Shown here: positions 9,777 to 32,239 of the stretch, piece after piece
How positions within the stretch are numbered: position 1 is the first letter of the stretch
How the letters are laid out: every line of letters begins with the position of its first letter
DNA from: Anaerolineae bacterium
GTDB taxonomy: Bacteria > Chloroflexota > Anaerolineae > DRVO01
Length of the DNA stretch: 37,681 bases
Assembly (NCBI GenBank): GCA_013178015.1
Contig: JABLXR010000007.1
Location: 1 to 37,681 of the forward strand
Reading direction: 5' to 3'
Translations under genes and position numbers: made by a program
The notes under the pieces: generated by a model
What the model was told of the DNA's origin: nothing
Database searches by the model: none
What the model saw: the letters and a program-made list of their open reading frames with translations, nothing else

Positions 9777-10613
9777 ATGGCAGACGCTACCAGAGACGTG
9801 GTGAGGCTGCGACAGCTCGCCCTGCAGATACGGCGCACCATTATTGAGATTACCACCAGGGCCGGCTCCGGGCACCCCAGCACCTCGCTGAGCATGGTGG
9901 AGCTCCTGATCCCCCTGTATTTCGGGGGCGTGCTCCGCCACGACCCCCAGAACCCCTGTTGGCCCGATCGCGACCGCTTTATCCTGAGCAAGGGCCACGG
10001 CGCCCCGGCGCTCTACACTGTGCTGGCCATGCGCGGCTACTTCTCCGAGGATCTCCTGCCCACCCTCAGGAGGATAGACAGCCCGCTGGAAGGGCACCCC
10101 AACATGCTCCGGGTGCCGGGGTTGGAGGCCTCCACCGGCTCACTGGGCCAGGGGCTCTCCCTCGGGGTAGGCCACGCACTGGCCGCCCGAGTAGACGGCC
10201 GCGGCTACCGTACCTACGTCATGATCGGGGACGGCGAATCCCAGGAAGGCCAGGTCTGGGAGGCAGCCATGGCCGCCGGTAAGTTCGGCCTGAGCAACCT
10301 CACCTGCATCCTCGATCATAATGGGTACCAGCAGACTGGCGCTGTAGCCGAGGTGATGCCGATCGAGCCGATAGCGGCCCGCTGGTCCGCCTTCGGGTGG
10401 CACGTCATAGAGATAGACGGGCACGACCTGGAGCAGGTCTTCGCCGCCTACGACGAGGCCAGAAGCACGACCGATCGGCCCAGCCTGATCTTGGCTCGGA
10501 CCGTCAAGGGCAAGGGAGTCAGGGTCATCGAGCAAGACGTGAAGCAGAGCCGTTACCACGGGGTGCCTCTGAGCCAGGACGAGGCGCGAGTGGCATTGGA
10601 GGAGCTGGCATGA
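9777..10613 (+). CDS. Transketolase, N-terminal (thiamine diphosphate-binding) subunit
   Basis: This 278-residue protein is the first half of a split transketolase, with ITTRAGSGHPSTSLS near the N-terminus, KGHGAPALYT, and the cofactor-binding GDGESQEGQVWEAA. Together with the next gene it moves two-carbon units between sugar phosphates in the pentose phosphate pathway. The ATG at 9777 has AAGGAGG upstream. The stop overlaps the start of the C-terminal subunit gene as ATGA, consistent with coupled translation of a 1:1 complex. Confidence 0.92.
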   Translation: MADATRDVVRLRQLALQIRRTIIEITTRAGSGHPSTSLSMVELLIPLYFGGVLRHDPQNPCWPDRDRFILSKGHGAPALYTVLAMRGYFSEDLLPTLRRIDSPLEGHPNMLRVPGLEASTGSLGQGLSLGVGHALAARVDGRGYRTYVMIGDGESQEGQVWEAAMAAGKFGLSNLTCILDHNGYQQTGAVAEVMPIEPIAARWSAFGWHVIEIDGHDLEQVFAAYDEARSTTDRPSLILARTVKGKGVRVIEQDVKQSRYHGVPLSQDEARVALEELA

Positions 10614-11584
10614 AGGTAGGAGCACGCATCGGCTTGCCCATCGGCAAGGCCACTCGCAACGCCTTCGGCGAGGCCCTACGCGACCTGGGCCACGAGTACC
10701 CGAACATCGTGGTGGTCGACGGAGACGTCCACAACTCCACCCGGACTGGCTATTTCGCCAAGGAGTTTCCCGATCGCTTCTTCAACCTGGGCATCGCCGA
10801 GTCCAACATGGTGGGCGTGGCAGCCGGGCTGGCAGCCTCGGGAAAGATCGCGTTCGTCTCCAGCTTCGCCTGCTTCATCATGTGCAACGCCTTCGACCAG
10901 CTACGCATGTCGGTGGCCTTCCCCAGGCAGAACGTGAAAGTAGTGGGCAGCCATGCCGGCATAAGCATCGGGGAGGATGGTCCATCGCAGATGGGCATCG
11001 AGGACGTGGCCCTGGCCCTAGCCCTTCCTGGGTTCGCCGTCTTCAGCCCCGCCGACGAGCACGCCGCCCGCGCCCTCACCCGACACATGGTGGAGACGGA
11101 GGGCCCGGCATACATGCGCACTGGCAGGCCCGACTTCCCGGTGGTCTACCAGCCCGAATCGGAGTTCGTCGTGGGCCGGGCCAACCGGCTGCGCGACGGA
11201 GGCGACTTGACCATCGTCGCCAGCGGTCTCATGGTGGCCGCCGGACTGGAGGCCGCCTACCTCCTTTCCCAGGACGGCATTGAGGCCCGCGTGCTCGACA
11301 TGCACACCATCCGGCCGCTGGACGAGGAGGCCATAGAGGCCGCCGCCCGGGAGACGGGCTGCATCGTCACCGCCGAGGAGCATCTTCTGGCCGGGGGAAT
11401 GGGCCAGCAGGTAGCAACGGTGGCCGCTCGCACCCACCCGGTGCCTATGGGCTTCGTGGGGCTGGACAACACCTATGCCACCAGCGGCTCCACCGACGCC
11501 CTGCTGGAGCGGTACGGCCTCACCGCCGACCATATCGCCCAGAAGGCACGCGAAGCTCTTTCCCACAAGCAGAGACCCCGTTAG
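10610..11584 (+). CDS. Transketolase, C-terminal subunit
   Basis: This 324-residue partner contains the pyrimidine-binding part, with DGDVHNSTRTGYF, FNLGIAESNMVGVAAGLA, SHAGISIGEDGPSQMGIED, and the C-terminal domain with TAEEHLLAGGMGQ. The ATG at 10610 overlaps the stop of the N-terminal subunit. A split enzyme is widespread in bacteria and archaea. DXP synthase is excluded because the two halves are separate and the sequence motifs match transketolase. Confidence 0.92.
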   Translation: MKVGARIGLPIGKATRNAFGEALRDLGHEYPNIVVVDGDVHNSTRTGYFAKEFPDRFFNLGIAESNMVGVAAGLAASGKIAFVSSFACFIMCNAFDQLRMSVAFPRQNVKVVGSHAGISIGEDGPSQMGIEDVALALALPGFAVFSPADEHAARALTRHMVETEGPAYMRTGRPDFPVVYQPESEFVVGRANRLRDGGDLTIVASGLMVAAGLEAAYLLSQDGIEARVLDMHTIRPLDEEAIEAAARETGCIVTAEEHLLAGGMGQQVATVAARTHPVPMGFVGLDNTYATSGSTDALLERYGLTADHIAQKAREALSHKQRPR

Positions 11585-18274: not shown

Positions 18275-18435
18275 CGACGCTGCTCCCGGTCCGGCTCATC
18301 TTCGAAGTAGTACAGGATCACATAGCGGCCATCATCGGTGCGCTCGACGCGTTTGCCCACTAGGCGTGGGCGTGGTTCCTGGCTCTGGGGCTGGCCGTCC
18401 TTCCGATCGGCGCTCTCCCCGGGCCGGCGGCTCAC
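18271..18435 (-). CDS. Small 54-residue protein between murA and galE
   Basis: A GTG start at 18435 overlaps the murA stop (GTGA) and its own TGA overlaps the galE GTG start (GTGA), so all three frames are chained. The first 24 residues are polar and rich in Arg, Pro and Gln. The rest forms a compact block, [17 protein letters not shown] followed by LYYFEDE, likely a short beta hairpin, and then a charged tail. No known domain is recognised. The double 4-base overlap is the main evidence that it is real. The function is unknown, perhaps regulatory or a small partner of MurA. Confidence 0.65.
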
Positions 18436-19712
18436 TCTTCCACCCTCTGGATGTGCGCTCCCAGCGCGCGCAGCTTCTCGTCAATGCGCTCGTAGCCCCG
18501 GTCTATCTGCCCGATGTTGCCGATAGTGCTTCGTCCCCGGGCGCAGAGGGCGGCGCCCAGCAGGGCTACACCGGCGCGGATGTCCGGGCTCTGCAGCTCT
18601 TCCCCGTGAAGCGCCGATGGGCCCACTACCACCGCCCGGTGCGGGTCGCACAATATGATGCTGGCGCCCATGGCGATCAGCCGATCCACGAAGAACATGC
18701 GGCTCTCGAACATCTTCTCCCAGAACAGCACCGTCCCCCGGCACTGAGTGGCGACCAGGAGAGCCACGCTCATCATGTCACTGGGAAAGGCCGGCCACAC
18801 GCCGTCGTCAATCTTGGGGACGTTGCCATCGAAGGCGGCCTCAACCCGCAGCTCCTGATCGGCAGGCACCACGATGTCGCCCCCGTCCACCTCTGTGCGC
18901 ACCCCGAGACGATCGAAGACCAGCCGCGTCATGCGCATGTGTTCCGGCACCGCATCCCTAATCCGCAGTTCGCCCCGAGTCACCGCCGCTAGGCCGATGA
19001 AGCTACCCACCTCGGTGTGGTCCGACGCGATCCGACACTGCCCTCCGCCCAACTGGCTCACCCCTTCGATGTGGAGTACGTTGCTGCCCACGCCGGTGAT
19101 CCGTGCGCCAAGCGAGTTCAGGAAATGGCATAGGTCCTGTACGTGGGGCTCCGAGGCGGCGTTGCGCAGAGTAGTGTGGCCCTCGGCCAGACAGGCAGCC
19201 ATGATGGCGTTCTCCGTGCCAGTCACGCTGGCCTCATCCAGCAGCACGTCCGCCCCTCGCAGGCGGTCGGCGTGCATCTCGTACCCGCCGTTGACCCGGA
19301 CCCTAGCCCCCAGGGCCTCGAAGGCCCTCATGTGGGTTCCCACACCTCTGCGTCCTATAGCGCAACCCCCAGGGACACAGACGGTGGCCCGCCCGAAGCG
19401 GGCCAGCAGGGGCCCGGCGAACAGGATGGAGCCCCTTATGGTCCGAGCGGCCTCTAGCTCCAGCCGGGTCTTGTTCACCCCCGCAGCGCACACGGTGACC
19501 GTGTGAGGATCGTGCCGCTCCACACTGGCGCCAACGTCTTCCAGCAAGTCGAGCACCGTGCGCACGTCCAGGATGTCGGGGAGGTTGGACACCGTCACCG
19601 GCTGATCGGTGAGGAGCGTGGCTGCCAGAATAGGCTGAGCGGCGTTCTTGTTGCCGCTGGGTGTCACCTCACCCTTGAGCGGATAGCCACCATTTATCAC
19701 CAGCTTGGCCAT
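18432..19712 (-). CDS. murA: UDP-N-acetylglucosamine 1-carboxyvinyltransferase
   Basis: This 426-residue EPSP-synthase-fold enzyme transfers enolpyruvate from PEP to UDP-GlcNAc, the first committed step of peptidoglycan synthesis. [13 protein letters not shown] lies at 19-31, and Cys117 in PGGCAIG corresponds to the fosfomycin-reactive Cys115 of E. coli. The Asp variant of resistant enzymes is not present. [10 protein letters not shown] and [11 protein letters not shown] are also seen. The ATG at 19712 has GGAGG upstream; an in-frame GTG/ATG 11 codons earlier lies inside the preceding gene and is less likely. Confidence 0.93.
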
Positions 19713-19737
19713 GCATTGTCCTCCGACCAGTGGGGAA

Positions 19738-20517
19738 CTACCCACACCGTCGCTCGCGTATCTCTAGGCTATCGCCTATGCCCAGCCCCACTCGCGTGGC
19801 AGCACTGCCGTCTCGGACGGCCACCTCCAGCAGTCCCCGGCTTCCGACGTAGGCCACTAGGTCCCCGCTTCGGACGTCTGCAAACGTCCGGCCAGGGCCG
19901 CACACCGTCTCCCCTCCTGCCCGCACCGTGAAGGCCGGAGGAAGGTCGTGCGACCGGGCCGACGTGATCAAGTTGCCGAACCGATCCACGTGGACCACCC
20001 GAGCCACCAGGGTTCCCCCGTCCGCCCCCCGCTCCACGCCCAGCGATAGGGTCACTGTCGGCGGTTGTGCGGTTCTGGTGCCGAGCCGGTCGGGAAGCAT
20101 CCCCGCGGCCAGCTTCGCCGCCACCGGAGCGAACACGTCGCGCCCATGGAAAGTGGCGCTGATGGGCATCCGCCAGTGCTCCGGGCGGTTCAGCTCAAAG
20201 ACCTCACCCCCGTCCCACACCAGCGACACTAGGCCATTGTCCGGCCCTACGAACCACTGCCGACCGACGCGGGCGATGAGGCCCCGGCGAGACGTGCCCA
20301 CGCCGGGATCCACCACGACCAGATGGACCGTGTCCGCTGGGAACTGGTCCAGGTAGCTGTATAGCACATAGGCAGCGGAGGAGACCGACCCGGGCGGGAT
20401 GTCGTGCGCGGCGTCCACCAGCCGGGCCTGGGGCAGTAGAGAGAGGATGACGCCCTTCATGGCCGCCACGTAGCCATCCGAGGTGCCGAAGTCGGTAAGC
20501 AGCACGATTGGCCTCAC
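19738..20517 (-). CDS. SAM hydroxide adenosyltransferase (DUF62 family)
   Basis: This 259-residue protein belongs to the fluorinase/chlorinase superfamily but matches the hydrolase branch that splits S-adenosylmethionine into adenosine and methionine. Seen: [46 protein letters not shown] and DRFGNLITS. The Asp/Arg/His triad of the hydrolases (Asp in DPGVG, Arg in SRRG, His in FHGRD) appears intact. The GTG start at 20517 follows CGGAGA. It leads the minus-strand operon, 25 bases before murA. The reason for a SAM hydrolase there is unknown. Confidence 0.85.
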
Positions 20518-20683: not shown

Positions 20684-21760
20684 ATGAACCCCACCGCCTC
20701 CCTCAGCGACCTGGCCCGCCTCCGCTCCGGCATCCGCTCCCGCCGCTGGTCCTCCTACGACACCACCGGCGGCAACGCCGACAACTGGCCCATCCCCGCG
20801 GGACAGACCGTCACCCTGGGCCAGACCGAGGGCGCCGGCTGCATCCGCCACATCTGGATGACCACCCGCGAAACCGACAACAACCTCCGCCGCCTGGTCC
20901 TCCGCTTCTACTGGGACGGCGAGGAGACACCCTCAGTGCTCTGCCCCCTGGGGGACTTCTTCGGCCTCGGCCACGCCAAGGCCACCTACTTCGAGTGCCT
21001 CCCCCTGCAGGCCTCCTACCTGGGCCTCAATTGCTGGTTCCCCATGCCCTTCGCCCGCGGCGCTCGGGTCACCGTGACCAACGACTCCGACGAGGACAGC
21101 TTCCTCTACTTCTACCTCGACTACCAGGAGTGGGACGAGGCGCCTTCAGACCTGGCCCGCTTCCATGCCCACTGGCGCCGCCGGCTGGTCACCGACCAGG
21201 GCGAGAAGCGCGGCCCCAATGCCCGGGGCCGGGAGGATCGGCTCAACACTACCGGCAAAGACAACTACGTCGTCCTAGACGTCCGCGGCAGAGGGCACTA
21301 CGTGGGCTGCTGCCTGCACGTGGACACCGACGAGACCGGCTGGTGGGGTGAGGGCGACGACATGTTCTTCGTGGACGGCGAGCCCTGGCCCCCGAGCCTG
21401 CACGGCACCGGCACCGAGGACTACTTCTGCGGCGCCTGGAACTACAACCAGCTGCACCGGCCCTATTGCACCCCCTACTACGGCTATCACTTCAAGGGCA
21501 ACGCCGACTACACTGGCAAGCACTCCCAGTACCGCTTCCACATCCAGGACCCGGTGTACTTCGAGAAGTCCCTCCTGTTCTCCATCGAGCACGGTCACGC
21601 CAACGACCGCCAGGGCGACTGGACCAGCACCGCCTACTGGTACCAGGTGGACCGCCGGGAGCCCCTACCGGAGTTGGGCTCCTTCGAGGATCGCCTTCCT
21701 TACAGCTTCGGCGGCCTGGAGCGCTGGCCGGGCAAGGACCGCCGTGCTCTGCCCAGGTAG
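20684..21760 (+). CDS. GH172 / DUF2961 family glycoside hydrolase
   Basis: This 358-residue protein of the DUF2961 family includes difructose dianhydride I synthase/hydrolase and fructo- or arabinofuranosidase-type enzymes. Seen: the N-terminal SRRWSSYDTTGGN, GAGCIRHIWMT, DGEETPSVLCPLGDFFG, EGDDMFFVDGE, the signature GTGTEDYF (241-248) with catalytic-type acidic residues, and a C-terminal YRFHIQDPV. No signal peptide is present, so it likely acts in the cytoplasm on imported oligosaccharides. GGAG precedes the ATG at 20684, and a very strong hairpin follows the gene. Confidence 0.87.
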   Translation: MNPTASLSDLARLRSGIRSRRWSSYDTTGGNADNWPIPAGQTVTLGQTEGAGCIRHIWMTTRETDNNLRRLVLRFYWDGEETPSVLCPLGDFFGLGHAKATYFECLPLQASYLGLNCWFPMPFARGARVTVTNDSDEDSFLYFYLDYQEWDEAPSDLARFHAHWRRRLVTDQGEKRGPNARGREDRLNTTGKDNYVVLDVRGRGHYVGCCLHVDTDETGWWGEGDDMFFVDGEPWPPSLHGTGTEDYFCGAWNYNQLHRPYCTPYYGYHFKGNADYTGKHSQYRFHIQDPVYFEKSLLFSIEHGHANDRQGDWTSTAYWYQVDRREPLPELGSFEDRLPYSFGGLERWPGKDRRALPR

Positions 21761-21764
21761 CCCG

Positions 21765-21802
21765 GCCGGCTGGCCGCGTCGACGGCGACGCGGCCAGCCG
21801 GC
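21765..21802 (+). terminator. Perfect 16-bp hairpin after the GH172 gene
   Basis: GCCGGCTGGCCGCGTC (21765-21780) and GACGCGGCCAGCCGGC (21787-21802) pair fully around a 6-base loop, five bases after the stop codon. There is no U-tract, but such GC stems commonly mark transcript 3' ends in GC-rich bacteria. Confidence 0.7.
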
Positions 21803-21984
21803 GTGCACCCAGAGTCCCCCCTAGGGGCGGTGCGGAGGGCGCCAGCCCGAAGCCCCGCCCTTCGCCCCTACAACACCGGTGCCTCGTCGGCGCGGGGCGA
21901 TGCCCGGTGGTCGCCCCGGGCGCGCCGCTCAGCCTCACCCGTTGACGGCCTCGGGCAGAGACGCTACCCTTCCGCATCACGACC

Positions 21985-23283
21985 ATGCGTCTCGTGGCGG
22001 GACGCCATCACCCCTCGGGAGGCTCGCGTACTGTGCTGTTCACACTCACCCACCACTTCCCCAGCTACCGGCTCTACGAGCCCCAGGTGCCCGTCTGGTG
22101 CGCCACACCCGGCACCGGAAGGGTGATACACCGGTTCTTCGACACTTCCCCCTTCAGCCCCTCCGGCCGCTACCTGGCCCTCACCCGCCTTCCCTTCGAG
22201 GTCCGGCTCCCCCGGCCCGGCGACGTGGCCGAGGTGGTCCTCGTGGATCTGGAAGCGGGCGAACAGCGGGCGGTGGCCGAGACCCGGGGCTGGGACACCC
22301 AGCTAGGCGCCCAGTGCCAGTGGGGCGCCGATGATACCCAGCTGTTCTTCAACGACATGGACACAGCCACCTGGACCCCCTTCGGCGTCAAGATGGACCC
22401 CATTAGTGGTCAGATGACGCGGCTGGATGGCCCCGTCTACATGGTCTCCCCCGATGGCACCCAGGCCCTCAGCCCCTGCCTCCTGCGCACGGGAGCCACC
22501 CAGGCCGGTTACGGCGTGCTGGCCCCGCCGCAAGCCGTCCCCATCAATGTCGGCGCCCCAGACGATGATGGTGTCTTTCTCACCGACACGGAGACGGGCG
22601 AGCGCCGCCTCCTGGTGTCGCTGGCTCAAATCGTCGAGGCCACTCGCCCGTTGGACCCCTCCACTCACCCGGGCGGCTCCTATCACGGCGCTCACGTCAA
22701 GTGGAGCCCCCAAGGCACCCGGATCATGCTCGTCCTGCGCTGGTTGCCCTCGCCGGGGGACACCGCCCGCATGGAGCGCATGGTCGTCACCATGGATCGA
22801 GACGCCAGCCACATCCGCATCGCGGTCCCCGCCGATCGGTGGTCTAGGGGCGGCCACCACCCCAACTGGTGCCCTGACGGCGAGAGGGTGCTGATGAACC
22901 TCAACCTCGACGGGAGCGGCCTGCGCTTCGTGGCCGCCCGGTACGACGGCAGCGAGCTGCGTGACATCGCCGGCGGCGTGCCGGGGTCGGGTCACCCCAC
23001 CCTGCACCCCAATGGGCGCCACATCCTCACCGACGCCTACCCCGACGAGCCCCTCGCCTATGGCGATGGTACTGTCCCTATCCGCCTGGTTGACCTGCGG
23101 GACCGGAGCGATCGCGCCCTCGTCCGCATCGGCGTCGTGCCTCCATTCGAGGGCCCGAGGAAAGAACTGCGGGTGGATCCCCATCCCGCGTGGGACCGAG
23201 CCTACAGACGCATCGCCTTCAATGCTTGCCCGGACGGCACCCGCCGGGTATACGTGGCCGACCTTTCGGCAGTGGTGAGCTGA
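21985..23283 (+). CDS. TolB/WD40-like beta-propeller protein
   Basis: This 432-residue protein shows repeated blade patterns, including PFSPSGRYLALTRL, QWGADDTQLFFND, KWSPQGTRIMLVLRW, NWCPDGERVLMNL and TLHPNGRHILTDA, typical of PD40/TolB blades and of oligogalacturonate-lyase-like propellers. No signal peptide is visible, so a cytoplasmic carbohydrate-related role is possible. The ATG at 21985 has no clear ribosome binding site. The in-frame GTG at 22033 follows GGGAGG and could be the true start. The specific reaction is not known. Confidence 0.72.
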   Translation: MRLVAGRHHPSGGSRTVLFTLTHHFPSYRLYEPQVPVWCATPGTGRVIHRFFDTSPFSPSGRYLALTRLPFEVRLPRPGDVAEVVLVDLEAGEQRAVAETRGWDTQLGAQCQWGADDTQLFFNDMDTATWTPFGVKMDPISGQMTRLDGPVYMVSPDGTQALSPCLLRTGATQAGYGVLAPPQAVPINVGAPDDDGVFLTDTETGERRLLVSLAQIVEATRPLDPSTHPGGSYHGAHVKWSPQGTRIMLVLRWLPSPGDTARMERMVVTMDRDASHIRIAVPADRWSRGGHHPNWCPDGERVLMNLNLDGSGLRFVAARYDGSELRDIAGGVPGSGHPTLHPNGRHILTDAYPDEPLAYGDGTVPIRLVDLRDRSDRALVRIGVVPPFEGPRKELRVDPHPAWDRAYRRIAFNACPDGTRRVYVADLSAVVS

Positions 23284-23303
23284 GGCACAGCCCTCCGGCT
23301 GCC

Positions 23304-23317
23304 CGACGGCACCGTCG
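23304..23317. terminator. Small hairpin between convergent genes
   Basis: CGACGG (23304-23309) and CCGTCG (23312-23317) form a short stem between the convergent propeller and dehydrogenase genes. It is weak and has no U-tract. Confidence 0.25.
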
Positions 23318-23331
23318 TAGGGCCATGCCGC

Positions 23332-24342
23332 TCAGCCCGTCCAGTCCAACATCACTCCCATAGACCGAGCGCGGTCCTTCCACAACATCTCGAACGCGGC
23401 AGGGGCCTCGCGCCAACCGAACCTCTCCGTCACCAGGTCGTTCACCCGGACCTCGCCGGCAGCCACCAGATCCAGGAACAGCTCCCCGTCGCGCTGCAGC
23501 GTCCATACGTTGTAGGGTGTCTCTACCGGGGTGTGGGTGCTGTTGTGAGCCCCAATCACGTGCAGGCCGTTCGTGTGGACCTCGTCGTGGAAGTCCACCT
23601 CGGTCTTGCCGCGGGGCGATCCCAGGAGTATCACCCGGCCCAGTCTGCGAGCCAGGCGAAAGAGCCCTGGAATCACCTTCGGGTTGCCCGTCACCTCGAA
23701 TACGACGTCCGCCAGCCGCCCTCGGTTGAGCGCCAACAGCCCCTCTCGGGCCGCCCCGGCGTCTCCCTGCAGAGTGTGCGTGGCACCGTGAGCCGCCGCC
23801 ATCTCCAGCCGGGCCTCCGACAGGTCCAGGGCCACCACCGGCCAGCCGCCGCTCTTGCGCGCCAGCTGTACTGCCAGATTCCCCACCAGACCTACACCGC
23901 AGACCACGGCGCTCTCCCCTAACTGGAGGCGGGACAGCCGGACTCCGTTGAGGCTGATGACTCCCAGAGTGCAGAAGGCAGCTTCCTCGTCCGATACCCC
24001 CTCTGGAACCGGCTGCACCTGGCTCCAGTTCTGCAGCACCAGCGAAGCGTGGGCTCCGTGACTGACCACCCGCTGGCCGACTCCCACGTCTTCTACTCCC
24101 GGGCCCGTCTGCACTACCACCCCTACGTTGGAGTAGCCGGGTCGCCAAGGGTACCGCACGTAGTTCGCCCACGCTGACTCCGGCGGGAACTCCCCTCCAA
24201 ACGCCGTCAACTCGGTACCGGTGCTGATGAGAGTGCACCGAGTCTGGATCAGCACCTGCCCCTCGCCCGGAGATGGCACTTCCACCGTCTCCAGGTCCAC
24301 CTTCCTCGCTCCAGGAAACACCACCGCTCGCGCTGTCTGCAC
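23332..24342 (-). CDS. MDR-family dehydrogenase (polyol/threonine dehydrogenase-like)
   Basis: This 336-residue medium-chain dehydrogenase has an N-terminal GroES-like domain with CTLISTGTEL, then PGYSNVGVV, and a Rossmann domain with VCGVGLVGNLAVQLA, ALDLSEARLEMA and LLGSPRGKTEVDFH. The four-cysteine lobe that binds the structural zinc in classical alcohol dehydrogenases is not seen, and the catalytic-zinc region is atypical. The GTG start at 24342 has GGAGGGG upstream. It probably oxidises a sugar, polyol or cyclitol; substrate unknown. It is divergent from the Asp-box protein gene. Confidence 0.8.
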   Translation of the reverse strand: MQTARAVVFPGARKVDLETVEVPSPGEGQVLIQTRCTLISTGTELTAFGGEFPPESAWANYVRYPWRPGYSNVGVVVQTGPGVEDVGVGQRVVSHGAHASLVLQNWSQVQPVPEGVSDEEAAFCTLGVISLNGVRLSRLQLGESAVVCGVGLVGNLAVQLARKSGGWPVVALDLSEARLEMAAAHGATHTLQGDAGAAREGLLALNRGRLADVVFEVTGNPKVIPGLFRLARRLGRVILLGSPRGKTEVDFHDEVHTNGLHVIGAHNSTHTPVETPYNVWTLQRDGELFLDLVAAGEVRVNDLVTERFGWREAPAAFEMLWKDRARSMGVMLDWTG

Positions 24343-24560
24343 GTGTACCCCTCCTGCCCTCTGCAGGTCGGCGGCCCATCGGCCGCCGCCTCATCATACC
24401 CACTCCAGCATCGGCCGCCAGCACGACTTCCCCCGACCGGTCGTCCCCGTAGCGCCCAAGACAAGGCCATCCCTCTATGCTACACTGGCGCTATCTTGGC
24501 GGGCCTGGCCCGGAGCTTTCCTGTTAGTGCTATCACATGGCTGCGCGTGAGGAGGCTGTT

Positions 24561-25496
24561 ATGCTGATTGCCACCAGGACCTCGGTGTATCGGCTGGAGG
24601 ACGACGGCTCTTGTCCTCCCTCCCTGGCGTTCGAAGGCGGGGGCATCCGGCGCGTGGCGGAAGGGTCGAGGGTCGGCATAGTGGCTCTGGCGAACGGTGA
24701 CGTCGTTTTGCTGCAGGGCGAGGGTCTGCGCCGAGTGGCGTCCGGCATTGCCGAGCCCATCGAGTCCCTCATGCTACTGCACGAGTCTCCGATCGAGCTG
24801 CTGATCGGCACCGAGGCGCCGCACCTGTACTACCTTACGGAAGACGGCGAGCCGGCCCGGCGCAACGCATCCTTTGCCGCCCTGCCCGTGCGGCCGAGAT
24901 GGTATACTCCTTGGGGCGGGCCGGCAGCCCTGCGCAGCCTGGCCCGCACCAACGACGGCTGGGTCTACGCCGATATTCACGTAGGCAGCATCATGCGGTC
25001 AGAAGATAGGGGCACAACCTGGGCGCCGGTGACTCCCGGTCTGCACGAGGACGTGCACCAGGTGAACACCAGCCCCGCCTCCGACGAGATCGTCTACGCC
25101 AACACCTTCCTGGCCGTGTACCTCAGCCAGGACCGAGGACGCACCTGGCATCATCGGGCCACAGACCTGGGCCAGAGGTACGGCCGGGCCGTGGTCGTGC
25201 ACCCGAAGTGGCCCGAAGTGGCCCTGGCCACCGTAAGCGACGGGCCCTCCGGAACCGACGTGCACGGGCAGCTCTATCGGACCGAGGACGCCGGGCTCAC
25301 CTGGGCCCTGGCTGAGGGCGAGTTCCCCCGGTCCACGGTCAGGAACATAGACACTTACCATCTGGCTTTCTCACCCGACGGCACCGCCTGGGCCTGCGTG
25401 GACCGCGCCCTCTACGTGAGCGGCGACAGCGGTGCTTCGTGGCGGCGGTTCTGGGAGGCCCCGGAGAGAATAGCCGGCATCGCCTGTCGCCGCTGA
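24561..25496 (+). CDS. Asp-box (BNR/sialidase-type) beta-propeller protein
   Basis: This 311-residue protein has four Asp-box motifs (S/T-x-D-x-G-x-T/S-W) at about 147-154, 189-196, 241-248 and 287-294. They are spaced as blades of a propeller related to sialidases, plant HCF136 and VPS10 domains. No catalytic sialidase arginine triad is evident and there is no signal peptide, so enzymatic activity is doubtful. The ATG at 24561 has AGGAGG five bases upstream and is preferred to the in-frame ATG at 24537. The Uro-D-like gene follows after 50 bases. Confidence 0.75.
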   Translation: MLIATRTSVYRLEDDGSCPPSLAFEGGGIRRVAEGSRVGIVALANGDVVLLQGEGLRRVASGIAEPIESLMLLHESPIELLIGTEAPHLYYLTEDGEPARRNASFAALPVRPRWYTPWGGPAALRSLARTNDGWVYADIHVGSIMRSEDRGTTWAPVTPGLHEDVHQVNTSPASDEIVYANTFLAVYLSQDRGRTWHHRATDLGQRYGRAVVVHPKWPEVALATVSDGPSGTDVHGQLYRTEDAGLTWALAEGEFPRSTVRNIDTYHLAFSPDGTAWACVDRALYVSGDSGASWRRFWEAPERIAGIACRR

Positions 25497-25546
25497 GCCG
25501 CCGGAGTCCTTTCTGACCCTGCGCACTACCAGGAGGGAGATTCTGC

Positions 25547-26695
25547 ATGGGGAGCACGCGCAGCCTGGCTGACTACCACGCCGCTCTCGCCGTCTCGCAG
25601 AGCATGGAAGTCCGCCGCGAGGAGTACCTGGACTACATGACCTTCAGGGAGAACCGACGGCCGCTCTTCACCGAGATCTTCGGGCCCCTTCTGGGCCTCA
25701 AGGAGGAATGGGCGGCCCAGGGTGCCACTCCCGAGGAGCTAGACCTGTCGGCCTTCCGCTACCAGCGCCCCGCCTTCGGGAGCGTACCGGTCTCCACCGG
25801 CTGGATGGACCCCTTCGAAGAGGAGATCCTAGAGGAGAACGATGAGTTCGTCATCGCGCGGGACCGCTACGGTCGCCGAGTCAAGCTGAGCAAGAAGGCG
25901 GCCACCCTGCCTCTGCCCCTCGAGTATCCGGTCCGCGACATGGACGACTGGATGCGGGTGAAGCACCACTACCAATTCTCCCCTTCACGACTGGCCGGGG
26001 ACTGGGAAGCAACAGCCCGCGCTCATCTGGCCGCGGGCCGAGTGGTCACCGTGTCCATCCCCGGGGGCTTCGATGAGCCGCGGCAGCTCATGGGCGAGGA
26101 AGCGCTCGCCCTGGCCTACTACGACCAGCCGGAGCTGGTGCACGACATCCTCGACACCATCGCCGAGACCGCAGTCCAGGTGTTGGATGAGGTTTCGCGC
26201 ACGGTACAAGTGGATCAACTCATGGTCCACGAGGATATGGCGGGCAAGAGCGGGCCCCTAGCCGGACCAAGGCAGGTTCGTGAATTCATCGCCCCCTACT
26301 ACCGTCGGGTGTGGGAGGTGCTGGAGGCTCGCGGGGCGCGCGTCTTCGGCCAGGACTCGGACGGGAACATGAACCCTGTCATAGACGAGTTTCTGGAATC
26401 CGGCCTCAACTTCATGTATCCCATGGAGCCTGCGGCAGGCATGGACATAGTCGTCCTGCGAGAACGATACGGCACTCGCCTGGCCTTCATGGGTGGCATA
26501 GACAAGCACGTTCTGCGGGGTACTCGAGAGGAGATCACAGCCGAGCTGGAGTACAAGATACCCCCGATGGTTCGCACCGGAGGCTGCATCCTCGGCCTGG
26601 ATCATCGCATACCCAATGGCACTCCGCTGGACAACTACCGGTTCTACGTGGCGAAAGCGTGGGAGATCATGGATCGCGAGGCTGCCCGCCTCTAG
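25547..26695 (+). CDS. Uroporphyrinogen decarboxylase-superfamily protein (copy 1)
   Basis: This 382-residue TIM-barrel protein of the Uro-D / corrinoid methyltransferase superfamily has a long N-terminal extension with REEYLDYMTFRENRRPLF, DQLMVHEDMAGKSGPL, GQDSDGNMNPVI, FMYPMEPAAGMDI and FMGGIDKHVLR, and ends in GLDHRIPNGTP. The metal-binding His/Cys set of MtaA/MtbA-type methyltransferases is not clearly seen, and haem genes are absent, so true Uro-D activity is unlikely. AGGAGGGAG precedes the ATG. In similar catabolic loci such proteins are thought to act on methylated or sugar-derived substrates, but this is unproven. Confidence 0.75.
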   Translation: MGSTRSLADYHAALAVSQSMEVRREEYLDYMTFRENRRPLFTEIFGPLLGLKEEWAAQGATPEELDLSAFRYQRPAFGSVPVSTGWMDPFEEEILEENDEFVIARDRYGRRVKLSKKAATLPLPLEYPVRDMDDWMRVKHHYQFSPSRLAGDWEATARAHLAAGRVVTVSIPGGFDEPRQLMGEEALALAYYDQPELVHDILDTIAETAVQVLDEVSRTVQVDQLMVHEDMAGKSGPLAGPRQVREFIAPYYRRVWEVLEARGARVFGQDSDGNMNPVIDEFLESGLNFMYPMEPAAGMDIVVLRERYGTRLAFMGGIDKHVLRGTREEITAELEYKIPPMVRTGGCILGLDHRIPNGTPLDNYRFYVAKAWEIMDREAARL

Positions 26696-26738
26696 GCGCC
26701 AGCAGGGAGCCCGGCGGCTCGGGGGAGCACTCCTGCAT

Positions 26739-27248
26739 TCAGCCCGACAGGCCGGACACCCCAGGGCGCACTCGATCTCGCCACACCTGCAGTTGCTGCT
26801 CCAGAGCCGCGGATCTCTCGGGGCGACCGGGAAGCCGGGGTAGCACTCTCAGGTAGGCTTCCCCCACTCGAGCGGCGTTACGAAAGTCGCCTCTGCGGGA
26901 GTAGATCTCTAGCAGCCGTTCGTAAGGCTGCTCGCCCACAAACCGGTCGGCCACATTGGCCTCGTACAGCTCGATGGCCTCGCGCAGCTTCCCCGCCTGC
27001 TCCAACTTGCCCGCCTGAGCGTTGCGCTGGACCATAACCTTCTGGAGCTCTGCCGCCACATCGGCGTATGCCTGCAGCGCTCGCGGCGCCCTTCGGGACG
27101 GGAGGCTGCTGCGCAGCAGGTCGCAGATCTCCTGGCGCGGAACGCCACCGTCCATCTGGTCCTGGGCCAGCCGGAGAGCTTCGGTCCTGCTAGCCTCGTA
27201 TGCCCCTCCCAGCTGCCACCGTCTAGTTAAGCCACGCAGGAGCGACAT
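26739..27248 (-). CDS. Hypothetical protein with TPR-like C-terminus
   Basis: This 169-residue protein is mostly helical and charged. Residues from about 75 on fit two tetratricopeptide-like helical pairs (KLREAIELYEANVADRF and YSRRGDFRNAARVGEAYL). The N-terminal half has no recognised domain. The ATG at 27248 has GGAGGGTGGGG upstream, and the in-frame extension of 11 codons is not needed. It converges with the Uro-D-like gene. The role is unknown; a protein-binding adaptor is a guess. Confidence 0.65.
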   Translation of the reverse strand: MSLLRGLTRRWQLGGAYEASRTEALRLAQDQMDGGVPRQEICDLLRSSLPSRRAPRALQAYADVAAELQKVMVQRNAQAGKLEQAGKLREAIELYEANVADRFVGEQPYERLLEIYSRRGDFRNAARVGEAYLRVLPRLPGRPERSAALEQQLQVWRDRVRPGVSGLSG

Positions 27249-27471
27249 ACCCCACCCTCCTCCTGGGTCACCGGCCCCCACAGGGCCGCCCTAGACTACC
27301 GATAGGCGAAGACGGACGACATAGGCGAACGATGACCACCGCCCTCATTATCTAGGCAACCGGCGTACCTGTCCAATGCAACAGCAAGGCGACCGAGCGC
27401 GGCTCGGGCAAGGGCCCGGTCGGTCTCCATGCTGCAGGGTAAGCCTGCACATCGTGCCCAGACCGACCTCG

Positions 27472-27500
27472 TTGATGCGAACCGGCTGCGCGCCTATACT
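27472..27500 (+). promoter_or_regulatory. Promoter of the xylose-isomerase-like gene
   Basis: TTGATG (27472-27477) is followed after 17 bases by TATACT (27495-27500). The resulting leader would be about 247 bases long. Confidence 0.6.
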
Positions 27501-27701
27501 GCTGCCACTTCTGCCAGAGACGACACCATAGCGCAGGAGGTCTCGAGAAAGGCATAGCCACCGTCATCGCCTCGTTCGTGGCGGCGGCGGCCCGACCACC
27601 TATCTTCATACCGGTGGGCTTCCTCGCCCGGCAGCGATTGCCGCTAAGCTGCGTGGGGCGGGCGGCATAGTCCCATGCGCGACGGCGTTCCCGAGCCGAA
27701 G

Positions 27702-27731
27702 GGCTGCCGGGCCCGGACTCGGCCGGCAGCC
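27702..27731 (+). promoter_or_regulatory. Hairpin in the leader of the isomerase-like gene
   Basis: GGCTGCCGG (27702-27710) pairs with CCGGCAGCC (27723-27731) around a 12-base loop, ending 12 bases before the ribosome binding site AAGGAGG. Such a stem could affect translation. No riboswitch family is recognised. Confidence 0.4.
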
Positions 27732-27753
27732 GCGGCAGTGACAAGGAGGACAC

Positions 27754-28896
27754 ATGGACCTGCGATATCAGAGTGAGCGCCGCACTCCGGAGGAGATGGT
27801 TCGACACCTGAAGAGCTTCAGTCTGGACCTCAAGTTCTCTGCCGGTGTCTGGTTCTTCGCGCCCGGCGGCGGCCGCTTCCACAGCCGCTACGTGCCCGAT
27901 CTGCCCATGGAAGGCCGGCTCGAGATCGCCTCCGGACTCAAGGACTACGGCCTGGTGGGACTGGAGGCCCACTACCCCAGCGAGGTCAACGAGGAGAACC
28001 TTGACCTATGGAAGGGGTTCATCCGCGATACCGGCATCCGCCTGGTGGGTCTGGCCCCCAACATCTTCTACGAGGCCCAATACGAGTGGGGGTCGCTTTC
28101 CTCACCCATCGAGGAGGCTCGAGACAGCGCCATCGCTCGAGCTAAGACTACCCTCCAACTGGCCAAGGAGCTGGGCACCGACATCGCCATCGTCTGGCCC
28201 GGCATAGACGGCTACGAGAACCCCTTCGGCCTGGACCTCATCGCAGCCCGGGACCGCTTCGCCGAGGGCCTGGCCGAGGTGATGGACGCCGTGCCCGGCA
28301 TGCCCGTGGCCGAGGAGCCCAAGCCCTACGAGCCCCGAGGTCACATCCTCTACGGTACCACCCCGGAGGGCATCCTACTGGCTCAGAAGGTGGAGGGCCT
28401 CCTGCGCCACCCGGAGAACCGGGCCAGACTGGAAGCGGGCGAGAGCCTGGTGGGGCTCAACCCCGAAGTAGGCCACGTGCTCATGGGCTTCGAAGACCTG
28501 CCCTACGCCCTCAGCCTGGTTCTGGAGTACGGCAAGCTCATGCACACCCACTGGAACAGCCAGCCTCTGGGTAACTACGACCAGGACCTCAACGCCGGGG
28601 TAATATCCCCCGAGCAAATGGAGGCGGCCCTCTATGTCCTCAAGATGCAGGGCTATCGGGGCTACTTCGGCATAGACATCAACCCGGAGCGCATGCCCGT
28701 GGAGCAGGCCCTGCGCAACAACATGGACGCGTTGCGGGCCGCCAACGACCGGATCAACTCGCTGGACCACGAGAAGGTCATCTTCGCCACTGCACACCCG
28801 GACCGGGCCCGGGGGTGGCTGGAGGCCTACCTCATCCGCATGCGGGCCCCGTCCAGCAGCACTCTGGCCCCTTTGCCGCCGCTCCCTGCGGGGTAG
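27754..28896 (+). CDS. Xylose isomerase-like TIM-barrel sugar isomerase
   Basis: This 380-residue protein of the xylose isomerase-like superfamily has metal-site motifs in the order of true xylose isomerases. They are VAEEPKPYEP around Glu187-188, GLNPEVGH (Glu238, His241), HTHWN (264-268), NYDQDLNAG (Asp276, Asp278) and YFGIDINPE (Asp308). It probably binds two divalent cations and isomerises an aldose to a ketose. The substrate may be xylose, rhamnose or a less common sugar. AAGGAGG lies before the ATG at 27754. The last 15 residues are Pro/Ser-rich, and a stem-loop spans the stop codon. Confidence 0.8.
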   Translation: MDLRYQSERRTPEEMVRHLKSFSLDLKFSAGVWFFAPGGGRFHSRYVPDLPMEGRLEIASGLKDYGLVGLEAHYPSEVNEENLDLWKGFIRDTGIRLVGLAPNIFYEAQYEWGSLSSPIEEARDSAIARAKTTLQLAKELGTDIAIVWPGIDGYENPFGLDLIAARDRFAEGLAEVMDAVPGMPVAEEPKPYEPRGHILYGTTPEGILLAQKVEGLLRHPENRARLEAGESLVGLNPEVGHVLMGFEDLPYALSLVLEYGKLMHTHWNSQPLGNYDQDLNAGVISPEQMEAALYVLKMQGYRGYFGIDINPERMPVEQALRNNMDALRAANDRINSLDHEKVIFATAHPDRARGWLEAYLIRMRAPSSSTLAPLPPLPAG

Positions 28897-28901
28897 GGAG
28901 C
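28881..28901 (+). terminator. Hairpin spanning the stop codon of the isomerase-like gene
   Basis: GCTCCCT (28881-28887) pairs with AGGGAGC (28895-28901) around a 7-base loop, with the stop codon at its edge. No U-tract follows. Confidence 0.4.
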
Positions 28902-29119
28902 ACCAGCAGGGTCCCCTCGGAGGGAGCAGGGAGAAAGCGGGCTGGTGATTGGGTTCTCAGCCTGCTTCGCTGACAAGCCAGGTTTGGTGGTGGGTGCCCG
29001 GGCGAGTGAGAGACACGGTAGACATAGTGGCTGAAAGCCTGGCGTCCGCGGGTCTGATGGCTTGCCTGGCCACCACCCCCAAGGCGCCGAAGCTCCGGCA
29101 CGCCCTGCCAGCCCGGTCA
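28902..29119. other. Gene-free stretch before the solute-binding-protein remnant
   Basis: Only short open frames are present and none has recognisable family features. No promoter was recognised with confidence. An inverted repeat with 7-base arms, ACCCACT/AGTGGGT, lies farther downstream at 29262-29268 and 29314-29320, with a wide loop. Confidence 0.4.
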
Positions 29120-29238
29120 CCGCGGGGTATCGGGACTCACTGAGAGAGCAGATGGACCGGGTGACCCAAGGCGCGAAGAGCGCGGAGGAGCGACTCGCCG
29201 CGGTCAGGAATGCGATGCAATCTCGTGACCACCTCTAG
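29120..29238 (+). pseudogene. Possible C-terminal remnant of an ABC sugar-binding protein
   Basis: In one plus-strand frame the last 35 or so codons before the TAG at 29236 read as YRDSLREQMDRVTQGAKS, then AEERLAAVRNAMQ. This fits the C-terminal helix pattern of extracellular solute-binding proteins (a run of helix, G-x-x-S-x-E-E-x-L, then a short tail). The body of the gene is absent upstream. If real it marks a lost transporter gene next to the sugar genes. The match is by pattern only and the stretch is short. Confidence 0.3.
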
Positions 29239-29363
29239 CTGGCAAGCAGGCAAGTCAGCTAACCCACTCGCACTGGACGGCTCCGACCACGTGCGCTTGG
29301 CGCCGACGCACTGAGTGGGTGCTACGTCATGGCACCAGTGACAGCGGAGGAACAGAGAAGATC

Positions 29364-30515
29364 ATGGACGGGATGACCTCACGCGAACGTCTCCTTGCCG
29401 CCCTACGGCGCCAAGAGGTGGACTACGTACCCTGCTCCCCCTCGTTCAGCCCCTCCCTCGCCGGGCCCCAGTACACTTGGGCCGGCCGCACCGACACCCT
29501 GGAGCGCCTCGTTGTCGAGTTGGGGCTGGACGCGGTCGTGAACGTAGCGATCGAGGCTTCCTGGCACCCCGACGTCACCAGTCGGGTGTGGCGGGAGGAG
29601 AGGCCCGGAGAGCTGCCGGTGCTGCACAAGGAGATCCAGACACCGAAGGGGCCTCTCACCGCCGCCATCCGCCTCACTGAGGACCTGCCGGACAAGGACG
29701 ACATCCGCCTGACCGACGACTGGAACGTGTCGCGCTTCGTCAAGCCCTGGTTCCAGACCATGGAAGACGTGGAGCGCTACGCCTACGTGCACTTGCCTCC
29801 ATCGGATGCCGCCATCGCCCAGGGCAGGGAGAGGTACCAGGAGGCCAGACGCCAGGCTGATCGCTACGGCCTGGCCGTCCACGCCGACTGCGGCACCGGG
29901 CTCACCTCTGCCTTGCAGCTCTTCGGTGCCCAGCAGGCGGTGTTGATCTCCATGGACCAGCCAGATATGATCCAGCGCTTCCTCGAGATCGAACACCGGA
30001 CCACCATGCGGCGGGCGGAGGTGCTGGCGGACTGGGGGGTGGACATCATCCATCGCAACGGCTTCTATGAGACCACCGACTTCTGGAGCCCGCGCCAGCT
30101 TCGGGAGTGGCTGGTGCCTCTGCTGCAAGAGGAGATCGCGGCCATGAAGTCGGGCGGGGCCGCCGTCACCTACACCGTGGAGACCGGCATCATGCCTATG
30201 CTGGACATCCTGGCCGTGCTAGACTTCGACGGCTACCGTGACATCGAGCCCGCCCTGGGACACCAGGACATGAGGGTGGTGGCCGAGCGGTTGTGCGACC
30301 GGCACTCCATCTGGGGCGGGGTCTCCGGCCCCATCCACATAGGCGAGGGCACTCCGGAGATCGCCCGCCAGGCGGTGCGGGAGGCGTTCGAGATCTTCGG
30401 CCCCAGGGGGCTGGTGCTCAGCGCCGTTCCCTCCATCCGAGCGCACTGGCCCTGGGAGAACTCCCTGGCCATGTTCGACGAGTGGCGCCAGCTGCGCGCG
30501 TGGCCGCCAGCCTGA
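29364..30515 (+). CDS. Uroporphyrinogen decarboxylase-superfamily protein (copy 2)
   Basis: This 383-residue protein begins MDGMTSRERLLAALRRQ, the classic opening of Uro-D/methylcobamide methyltransferase relatives. It continues with VDYVPCSPSF, VHADCGTGLTSALQLFG, DWGVDIIHRNGFYETTDF, YTVETGIMPM, and IWGGVSGPIHIGEGTPE near the end. It is only distantly similar to copy 1 at 25547, so the two likely handle different substrates. No corrinoid protein gene is visible. The ATG at 29364 with GGAGG 13 bases upstream is preferred, and 29373 is an alternative start. Confidence 0.77.
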   Translation: MDGMTSRERLLAALRRQEVDYVPCSPSFSPSLAGPQYTWAGRTDTLERLVVELGLDAVVNVAIEASWHPDVTSRVWREERPGELPVLHKEIQTPKGPLTAAIRLTEDLPDKDDIRLTDDWNVSRFVKPWFQTMEDVERYAYVHLPPSDAAIAQGRERYQEARRQADRYGLAVHADCGTGLTSALQLFGAQQAVLISMDQPDMIQRFLEIEHRTTMRRAEVLADWGVDIIHRNGFYETTDFWSPRQLREWLVPLLQEEIAAMKSGGAAVTYTVETGIMPMLDILAVLDFDGYRDIEPALGHQDMRVVAERLCDRHSIWGGVSGPIHIGEGTPEIARQAVREAFEIFGPRGLVLSAVPSIRAHWPWENSLAMFDEWRQLRAWPPA

Positions 30516-30573: not shown

Positions 30574-31167
30574 CTACTCCTCCAGGTGGGGCAGGAGCGC
30601 TCCCCCCTCCCCCGACTCGAGCACTAGTAGGAACCGTGCCTCCTCCCAAGTCGGGTTGCACCAGGCGTGCGCCAGCGAAGCCTCGAACAGGAGCGCGTCG
30701 CCCGGCCGCAAGACGTAGACCGTCCCGCCCACAGCGTAGTCCACCCGCCCCGACAGCCCGAAGACCAATTCCTGCCCCCGATGGCGGATGGGGTCCAGCC
30801 CACTTCCAGCCCCGGGCTTCAGGGTCACCTGAAAGGGCTCGATGCGCTGCCGCGCCAACCCTGTCCCCAGGCTCTCGATGAGCGCCTCGCCCGTCTGCAT
30901 TCTGCCCCGCCGCTCTGCCGGGAGGTATACCACGTTCTGCTCCTCCTGCGGCCCGAAGAAGTCCACGATCCGCACCCCGAGGGCGCCGGCCAGCCGATGC
31001 AGGGTGGAGACGGTAGGCGAGGACTGACCCCGCTCGATCAGACTGACGGTGTTCACCGCCACTCCACTGCGCTCCGCCAGGGCGCGCAGCGACAACCCGC
31101 GTGCCTCCCGTAGCATTCGTATCCTCTGCCCCACGTCGGGCGGCGCTTCCTCTACCATGCGCTCCAC
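30574..31167 (-). CDS. XRE-family regulator with C-terminal cupin domain
   Basis: This 197-residue regulator has a helix-turn-helix at about 13-66 (RIRMLREARGLSLRALAERS, then NTVSLIERGQSSPTVSTLHRLA) and a cupin-2 sensor domain at about 105-190 (PFQVTLKPGAG, HRGQELVFGLSGRVDY, LRPGDALLFEASLAHAW). Such proteins bind a small ligand in the cupin and control neighbouring catabolic or stress genes. The start is GTG 31167 or ATG 31158. It is divergent from the mrp operon and converges with the Uro-D-like gene, so either could be a target. Confidence 0.88.
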   Translation of the reverse strand: MERMVEEAPPDVGQRIRMLREARGLSLRALAERSGVAVNTVSLIERGQSSPTVSTLHRLAGALGVRIVDFFGPQEEQNVVYLPAERRGRMQTGEALIESLGTGLARQRIEPFQVTLKPGAGSGLDPIRHRGQELVFGLSGRVDYAVGGTVYVLRPGDALLFEASLAHAWCNPTWEEARFLLVLESGEGGALLPHLEE

Positions 31168-31354: not shown

Positions 31355-32239
31355 GTGGACCAGGCCAAACCCGACCGACCTTCAGACGGTAGCGCCGGTC
31401 CTGAAAGGTATGACCAGGGAAGCTCCTACGTTGAGGGGCAGGCGGAAGCCCTCAACCGCATCGGTCGCGTGGTGGCCGTGATGAGCGGCAAGGGCGGGGT
31501 GGGGAAGTCCTCCCTGTCCGCTCTGCTTGCCGTGGCCATGCGACAGGCGGGCCAGTCCGTAGGTCTGCTCGACGCTGACGTCACCGGACCCAGCATCCCC
31601 CGCCTGTTTGGCGTGCGCCAAGCGCCTAGGTTGAGCCCCCTGGGCATCATCCCCTCCCGAAGCAAGAGCGGCATAGCCATCATCTCTATCAATCTGATGC
31701 TTCCTCAGGAAGACGAGCCTGTCGTCTGGCGCGGCCCACTCATCGGCCGGGCCATCCAGCAGTTCTGGAGCGACGTCTACTGGGGAGACCTGGACACCCT
31801 GGTGGTGGACCTTCCGCCGGGCACGGCAGACGCGCCCCTCACGGTCATGCAGTCCGTACCTCTCAACGGCGTGGTTCTGGTGACCTCGCCCCAGGACCTG
31901 GCCGGAATGGTGGTCCGCAAGGCGGCCAACATGGCCCGGCACATGGGAGTCCCCCTGATCGGGATGGTGGAGAACATGAGCTACGTGATCTGCCCCCACT
32001 GTGGCGAGAGGATCGAGATCTTCGGGCCCAGCCGGGCCGAGAGCATGGCGCAGGGGCTCGGCTTGCCTCTTCTGGGGCGCCTGCCTCTCGACCCTGAGCT
32101 GGCGGCGCTCTGTGATGCCGGAGAAGTGGAATCCTACGCCAGCCCCGCACTGGACGGGGTGGTTTGCGAGGTAATGGCCCTAATCCCGCGGGAGAAGGTC
32201 GGGCCTGCAGCCAACAGGCTCAGGCACCCAGGCGCCTGA
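31355..32239 (+). CDS. Mrp/NBP35-family Fe-S cluster carrier ATPase
   Basis: This 294-residue protein carries a deviant Walker A, SGKGGVGKSS at 44-53, then LLDADVTGPSIPRLFG, DTLVVDLPPGTADA, and a CPHC pair (Cys213, Cys216) for a bridging [4Fe-4S] cluster between two subunits. Family members bind and transfer Fe-S clusters. The GTG at 31355 follows GGGAGG, and the longer upstream frame is not part of the protein. It leads a seven-gene operon with ferredoxin-containing ATPases and NifX-like proteins. Confidence 0.92.
   Translation: MDQAKPDRPSDGSAGPERYDQGSSYVEGQAEALNRIGRVVAVMSGKGGVGKSSLSALLAVAMRQAGQSVGLLDADVTGPSIPRLFGVRQAPRLSPLGIIPSRSKSGIAIISINLMLPQEDEPVVWRGPLIGRAIQQFWSDVYWGDLDTLVVDLPPGTADAPLTVMQSVPLNGVVLVTSPQDLAGMVVRKAANMARHMGVPLIGMVENMSYVICPHCGERIEIFGPSRAESMAQGLGLPLLGRLPLDPELAALCDAGEVESYASPALDGVVCEVMALIPREKVGPAANRLRHPGA

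Follow-up and report, generated by a model that had tools for sequence, protein, structure and literature searches.

Oligogalacturonate lyases such as 3pe7 and 3c5m, which we take to be the family named PL22, are beta-propellers in which H287, Q350, H353 and H355 (3pe7 numbering) presumably bind manganese. Xylose isomerases of the Arthrobacter type (XylA) are TIM barrels with EPKP, NPEVGH, DQDL and H-I-D-L-N motifs, and MtaA (4ay7), of the UROD superfamily, carries an H-x-C...C pattern that we take to be its zinc ligands. MtaA is one of the soluble coenzyme M methyltransferases (Kountz and Balskus, PMC10418091, in extract), a text that cites titles mentioning zinc in such enzymes; the same superfamily holds CdmB, MtvB, OdmB, VdmB and MtoB, and the extracts of PMC13222342 state that CdmB and the O-demethylases work with a corrinoid protein. 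In glycoside hydrolase family GH172, E270 and E291 of alphaFFase1 are the catalytic acid/base and nucleophile glutamates (PMC8605356, in extract). Here we compare with these enzymes the members of a carbohydrate island at positions 20684-30515 of a 37,681-nucleotide stretch (hereafter the window; contig C7, positions 1-37681) from an Anaerolineae bacterium with a 4.57 Mb draft genome in 97 contigs (G000). The island encodes a GH172 enzyme, an oligogalacturonate-lyase-like (Ogl-like) propeller, an MDR-superfamily dehydrogenase, a BNR-type propeller, a XylA-like isomerase and two UROD-superfamily proteins, UroD1 and UroD2.

We think that the island is probably a variable site beside housekeeping genes, which has gathered carbohydrate genes of separate histories and is neither one operon nor, in all probability, one conserved pathway. 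The genes that a preliminary description had recognised from the sequence are indeed present, identified mostly by Pfam and, for the Ogl-like propeller, by profile and fold (Table 1); that description did not name the small ORF with weak TPR resemblance or the XRE-cupin regulator, which Table 1 adds. That they form a single set was not confirmed: they fall into at least five strand-separated units (GH172 and Ogl-like on the plus strand, MDR on the minus strand, BNR and UroD1 on the plus strand, a TPR-like open reading frame (ORF) on the minus strand, and isomerase and UroD2 on the plus strand), and no other locus examined holds the set. A gap of at least 224 bases separates GH172 from the Ogl-like gene, and about 420 bases lie between the isomerase and UroD2 genes; BNR and UroD1, spaced by 50 bases, may share a common transcript. 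Promoter-like sites, which as sequence matches are no proof of function, number six against 0.9 expected. Four of them precede SAM_HAT, GH172, the TPR-like ORF and the isomerase (one each), and the remaining two belong to UroD2, the first at its start and the second within the gene; for the Ogl-like, MDR and BNR genes no such upstream site was found. We rejected the one-operon reading on the strand changes and gaps, with which the promoter-like sites weakly agree. The related claim that the promoters of these genes differ draws weak support from the use of both strands and the uneven distribution of the sites.

The content of the site differs between relatives. In a genome of the same genus (G001), the order is GalT, epimerase, EPSP, GH172 (85.6% identical), Ogl-like (75%) and contig end; there is no SAM_HAT match at this site, no isomerase match in the genome at E 1e-30, and the best UroD1 match is only 32% identical. 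In a genome of the same family (G002), an EPSP gene cut by the contig end is followed by SAM_HAT and UroD1, with the other island genes absent between. Since these contents differ, the GH172 and Ogl-like pair, on the one hand, and UroD1, on the other, seem to have been gained or lost separately. The right border of the site (Mrp) is known from G000, the contigs of the relatives ending before it.

The neighbourhoods of UroD1 relatives also speak for separate histories. A search of named genomes gave 55 contigs, and two with partial, weak matches (L131, L132) were kept out of the neighbour counts. Because our gene caller had been trained on the codon use of the window and is poor for low-GC contigs, the neighbour test was repeated by tblastn (E 1e-6) on the raw DNA of the 53 named contigs (774 kb in total); this count includes L087 and L120, in which no UroD1 gene was called and which the analyses based on gene calls do not cover. 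Ogl-like, MDR, BNR and isomerase genes were each found in 0/53 contigs, a GH172 homologue in one (24% identity), UroD2-like genes in two and MtaB in two, many of the contigs being short, so that some of these absences are contig cut-offs. Neither blastp clustering nor Pfam counts of the 94 nearest neighbours revealed a constant partner of UroD1; the most frequent families in the counts are URO-D (5), sulfatases (4), AraC-type regulators (4) and RACo (3).

The isomerase keeps different company. By sequence it is closest, among proteins of solved structure, to xylose isomerases, and it shares with XylA the TIM barrel and the EPKP, NPEVGH and DQDL motifs; unlike XylA, it has a His for the Asp of H-I-D-L-N, and it reaches 92.9 bits against the 447-bit cut-off of the NCBIfam XylA equivalog. 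Among 199 genomes of the class that we searched, 13 besides G000 have close orthologues (66-76% identical); they belong to several families, and loci were fetched from 12 of them (in G075, which was excluded, the locus is split over two contig ends). An FGGY kinase lies within 7 kb in 8/12, Gfo/Idh together with a second isomerase in 4/12, and an RbsC permease in 3/12, and none of the 12 loci gives a GH172, Ogl-like, MDR, BNR or UroD1 match at E 1e-10. Conserved neighbourhoods elsewhere, which the preliminary description had said would count against a shared pathway, thus exist for the isomerase, in the form of its FGGY kinase. The genome itself has seven matches to this kinase, the best of which (57% identical, on C20) adjoins a PfkB-like kinase, as judged by eye.

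Table 1. Features of the island and of the genes on either side, with positions in the window
Feature	Position	Strand	Evidence
EPSP-synthase/MurA-like, left neighbour	18432..19745	-	PF00275 222 bits
SAM (S-adenosylmethionine) hydroxide adenosyltransferase (SAM_HAT), left neighbour	19738..20517	-	PF01887 184 bits
GH172 (DUF2961) glycoside hydrolase	20684..21760	+	PF11175 292 bits
Oligogalacturonate-lyase-like (Ogl-like, PL22-like) beta-propeller	21985..23283, start may be 22033	+	Family profile, predicted fold
MDR-superfamily dehydrogenase	23332..24342	-	PF00107 (ADH_zinc_N) 66 bits, PF08240 (ADH_N) 29 bits
BNR/Vps10-type beta-propeller	24537..25496	+	PF15902 54 bits, PF02012 31 bits
UroD1, UROD superfamily	25547..26695	+	PF01208 55 bits
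Small ORF, weak TPR resemblance	26739..27281 (gene caller start 27248)	-	TPR_7 E 0.011 only; codon usage calls coding
XylA-like sugar isomerase (AP_endonuc_2 TIM barrel)	27754..28896	+	PF01261 63 bits
UroD2, second UROD-superfamily protein	29319..30515, start may be 29364	+	PF01208 41 bits
XRE-cupin transcriptional regulator beside island	30574..31167	-	HTH_3 58 bits, Cupin_2 54 bits
Mrp/NBP35-type ATPase, right neighbour	31355..32239 (upstream start 31049 also open)	+	PF10609 298 bits

Farther to the left, the window holds a transketolase encoded as two adjacent genes for the N-terminal and C-terminal halves (9777-11584) and a tRNA-Gly (CCC) on the minus strand (541-613).

Individually, the carbohydrate genes resemble described enzymes to different degrees. 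The GH172 protein is far above the gathering score of 27 for DUF2961 and aligns over most of its length with the solved difructose dianhydride I synthase/hydrolase alphaFFase1 (7v1v; residues 6-61 and 69-340, E 4.6e-79) and with an exo-alpha-D-arabinofuranosidase (8ic8, E 3.7e-43). E270 and E291 of alphaFFase1 fall on the glutamates of WWGEGDDM and GTGTEDYF (positions counted from the alignment), and no signal peptide was seen by eye. What sets it apart from characterised GH172 enzymes is its partner in the genus, the Ogl-like gene. The product of the latter has no Pfam match; a profile of 11 relatives matches 3pe7 (E 8.6e-8) and 3c5m (E 2.1e-6), and its AlphaFold2 model (predicted local distance difference test score, pLDDT, 83.1) returned 3pe7 and two chains of 3c5m as the top three Foldseek hits. 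It keeps the histidines aligned to H287 and H355 of 3pe7, unlike which it has Arg and Asp at Q350 and H353, so that two of the four presumed manganese ligands are retained. An Ogl-like paralogue (31% identical) is oriented divergently to an adjacent MttB-family gene elsewhere in the genome (L142, G000:C30:108072-110950).

The MDR protein passes the cut-offs of both its domains (ADH_N 29.3 vs 23.5 bits, ADH_zinc_N 66 vs 31.8 bits) and is under that of every one of the 20 NCBIfam models listed. UroD2 matches the MtaA/CmuA-like NCBIfam model at 39 bits against a cut-off of 235, with T-x-E and P at the sites of the H-x-C and C of MtaA.

UroD1 differs from MtaA at the same sites. Its D270-x-D272...H353 stands where MtaA aligns His, Cys and Cys, and this D-x-D...H replaces H-x-C...C in 50/50 sequences; D230, D270, D272, E294, K320, D352 and H353 are invariant in the same 50. 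Its AlphaFold2 model (pLDDT 91.6) is closest in fold to UROD (Z 21.5 to 4zr8), followed by MtaA (Z 18.0); the structure comparison listed UROD, MtaA, MetE and unrelated barrels, and the absence of CdmB from the rows listed excludes nothing. A profile of UroD1 and 32 relatives does match CdmB (9rui, E 1.6e-6), a member of the same superfamily.

Full-length relatives of UroD1, 50-79% identical, carry 14 phylum labels. The alignment and tree use the 49 loci whose match has at least 45% identity and spans 300 aligned residues or more. Together with the two UroD1 copies of G000, these 49 relatives make up a single clade with full support in the Shimodaira-Hasegawa-like approximate likelihood ratio test (SH-aLRT), apart from three paralogues, in a quick tree with long outgroup branches. 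Phylum labels are mixed on this tree (24 changes, against a minimum of 13 and a shuffled mean of 29.4), which suggests horizontal transfer of UroD1 among phyla. We take UroD1 to be a stand-alone, probably horizontally mobile UROD-superfamily enzyme with conserved acidic and histidine residues of its own.

The second copy, on C9 (G000:C9:12922-14061), is 95% identical to UroD1. The DNA of the two copies is 91% identical over the gene and at chance level in the 150-base flanks (27% and 29%, ungapped), and third codon positions hold 79/99 of the differences. Identity confined to the gene, together with this bias, points to a duplication that spanned about one gene and to apparent selection on both copies. 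The genome has at least 33 UroD-family matches (32/80 candidates scored), and in an alignment of 48 UroD-like sequences from this genome and its relatives, D...D-x-D...H occurs in 15 and H-x-C in 10. A limited literature library yielded no paper describing a UROD clade with D-x-D...H or an expansion of the UroD family next to sugar genes, and the papers turned up by our literature search assign no function to UroD1 relatives.

Two activities come into question for UroD1, both of them tentative. The first, possible at best, is that of a cobamide-independent decarboxylase or carbon-carbon lyase, which would act on a sugar-derived acid through D-x-D...H. The fold, nearer to UROD than to MtaA, is consistent with it, as are H353, which aligns with a histidine of HemE chains, and the position of the C9 paralogue beside sugar uptake and Gfo/Idh genes. 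Against it, no result points to an acid substrate, neither UroD1 nor UroD2 matches an NCBIfam HemE model at E 0.001, and any role of D-x-D...H in metal binding is putative.

The second, slightly less likely, is cobamide-linked methyl transfer or O-demethylation, with a methylated sugar or comparable small molecule as substrate and the acidic and His residues in place of the zinc site. Genes for RACo and a corrinoid protein, which UroD1 has as neighbours in common with the MtaA-type enzymes, were found in 4/53 contigs (L092, L100, L104, L111). In L104 and L111, two related Verrucomicrobia metagenome-assembled genomes, the run is corrinoid protein, MtaB (507 and 518 bits), RACo and UroD1, followed by an opposed gene and RbsA; in L100, RACo comes immediately before UroD1. 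The extracts of PMC13222342 describe CdmB and a Moorella O-demethylase as functioning without zinc and some O-demethylases of the superfamily as containing it, so that loss of the zinc site is compatible with methyl transfer. The genome moreover has three RACo matches (on C8, C16 and C5), MttB-family genes at eight places (10 matches) and corrinoid-domain matches on C14, C64 and C74, one of them full-length next to an MttB gene and two of them contig-end fragments. None of the RACo or corrinoid-domain matches lies on C7 or C9, however, no MtaB match was found in the genome, and one full-length and two contig-end corrinoid domains would have to serve at least 33 UroD-family genes. In 49/53 loci the stretch compared shows no corrinoid or RACo gene, a difference from MtaA-type enzymes, CdmB and the O-demethylases. 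On the UroD1 tree L104 and L111 stand as sisters and so count as one event, leaving three separate contexts at most. RACo near UroD1 in 4/53 loci compares with 0/40 in a non-random control of loci retrieved with isomerase, GH172 and UroD genes as targets, which is not significant (Fisher p 0.13, with 51/53 UroD1 loci in the test). We regard the link between UroD1 and corrinoid or RACo genes as suggestive. Of the methylated sugar named in the preliminary description, this leaves a possibility for UroD1 alone.

A bolder form of the same idea, which we hold to be rather improbable, is that UroD1 founds a new class of cobamide-linked methyltransferases, dispersed through numerous phyla by transfer, in which D-x-D...H stands in for the zinc site that coenzyme M methyltransferases have. 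UroD1 would take the place of MtaA beside MtaB, corrinoid protein and RACo in the Verrucomicrobia, and would elsewhere demethylate methylated sugars or comparable plant-derived methyl ethers with corrinoid proteins encoded at other loci.

As the preliminary description had noted, the island has no transporter: the ORF family scan found no permease or kinase in 20684-30515, and no ABC (ATP-binding cassette) transporter or sugar-kinase family was matched among the other window ORFs scanned, some short ORFs being left out. Searching flanking and unlinked regions for sugar ABC systems, as had been proposed there, did yield binding proteins and permeases on C7 and C9. On C7, the first of a series of permease-like genes (by eye) starts at C7:44386, which is 13.9 kb past the island, followed by a Pfam-confirmed sugar binding-protein gene at 46356-47750 and further binding proteins at about 61, 70 and 79 kb. 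The C9 copy of UroD1 has around it genes for a sugar-binding protein, two permeases, an alpha/beta-hydrolase, DUF3604, a flavin adenine dinucleotide (FAD)-binding protein, Gfo/Idh, MFS and MDR. With a 95% identical UroD1 beside an ABC sugar importer, it is plausible that uptake systems are encoded elsewhere in the genome, and the suggestion of a modular set with distant uptake is plausible to the same extent, given also the C20 kinase and the C7 importer genes. GH172 would hydrolyse an imported alpha-furanoside in the cytoplasm, and the Ogl-like propeller may have as substrate a uronic-acid oligomer or the product of one. A ketose made from an aldose by the XylA-like enzyme would be phosphorylated by the C20 FGGY kinase, and the substrates would enter through ABC importers encoded elsewhere.

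We dropped as too weak the idea that UroD genes mark sugar importers here, since the genome has 60 SBP_bac_1 matches. Of 22 UroD positions among the matches listed, which include the two in the window, 5 have a sugar-binding-protein gene within 3 kb (P 0.057), 7 within 6 kb (P 0.059) and 10 within 10 kb (P 0.029); merged to 18 loci, six lie within 6 kb (P 0.08). For the MttB family, the figure is 4/8 places within 6 kb (P 0.03). The stretch C7:44386-80400 (L007, L008) holds several sugar ABC sets near UroD, Gfo/Idh-like or isomerase-like genes and repeated pairs of histidine kinase and response regulator, the binding proteins identified by Pfam and the rest mostly by eye. A histidine-kinase-like gene and a gene for a protein with a C-terminal response regulator (clusters cl5 and cl6) recur by sugar importers in L006 (49-3523), L051, L053, L008 and L014; the N-terminal part of the latter protein has no Pfam match.

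Several observations weigh against our reading of the island as a variable site with genes of separate histories, in addition to the short contigs mentioned above. The pair of GH172 and Ogl-like genes is conserved in G001, of the same genus. In one of the two close orthologue loci of UroD2, that of G044, the UroD2 orthologue has beside it an MDR gene that shares 47% identity with the one in the window. UroD-family genes recur near the other parts: a more distant one in the isomerase locus L023, a UroD-like gene (by eye) beside the C20 kinase, and one within about 4 kb of a GH172 homologue in 3/5 fetched loci, a count biased by the choice of these three because both genes were already known there. 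Finally, distant AP_endonuc_2 and BNR genes each occur in 2/94 nearest neighbours of UroD1 relatives. A single pathway that degrades an unusual furanoside or a methylated sugar, as the preliminary description had supposed, with uptake and kinase encoded elsewhere, nonetheless appears unlikely, because the sugar-binding proteins, permeases and FGGY kinase present in this genome, the conservation of GH172 with the Ogl-like gene in the genus and the UroD2-MDR pair of G044 are outweighed by a set absent from every other locus examined, by UroD1 relatives that occur without the other island genes, by isomerase orthologues that accompany a kinase instead, and by a same-genus genome with neither an isomerase match nor a close UroD1.

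Among GH172 homologues, those in L038 and L039, from two genomes of one family, lie in a conserved group that includes, among the genes listed, a UroD gene, a pair of HAD-like genes, an acetyltransferase-like gene and a PfkB/RfaE-like kinase (named by eye).

The variable-site reading carries a broader message: what looks persuasively like a catabolic island can be pieced together from genes of different pathways. This island looks like an ordinary patchwork of that kind, of which UroD1 is the notable part. If UroD1 proves to be a cobamide-linked methyltransferase, anaerobic demethylation chemistry would be wider than now known; if it is instead a new decarboxylase or lyase, a superfamily with dozens of copies in some Anaerolineae-type genomes would gain its first testable function.

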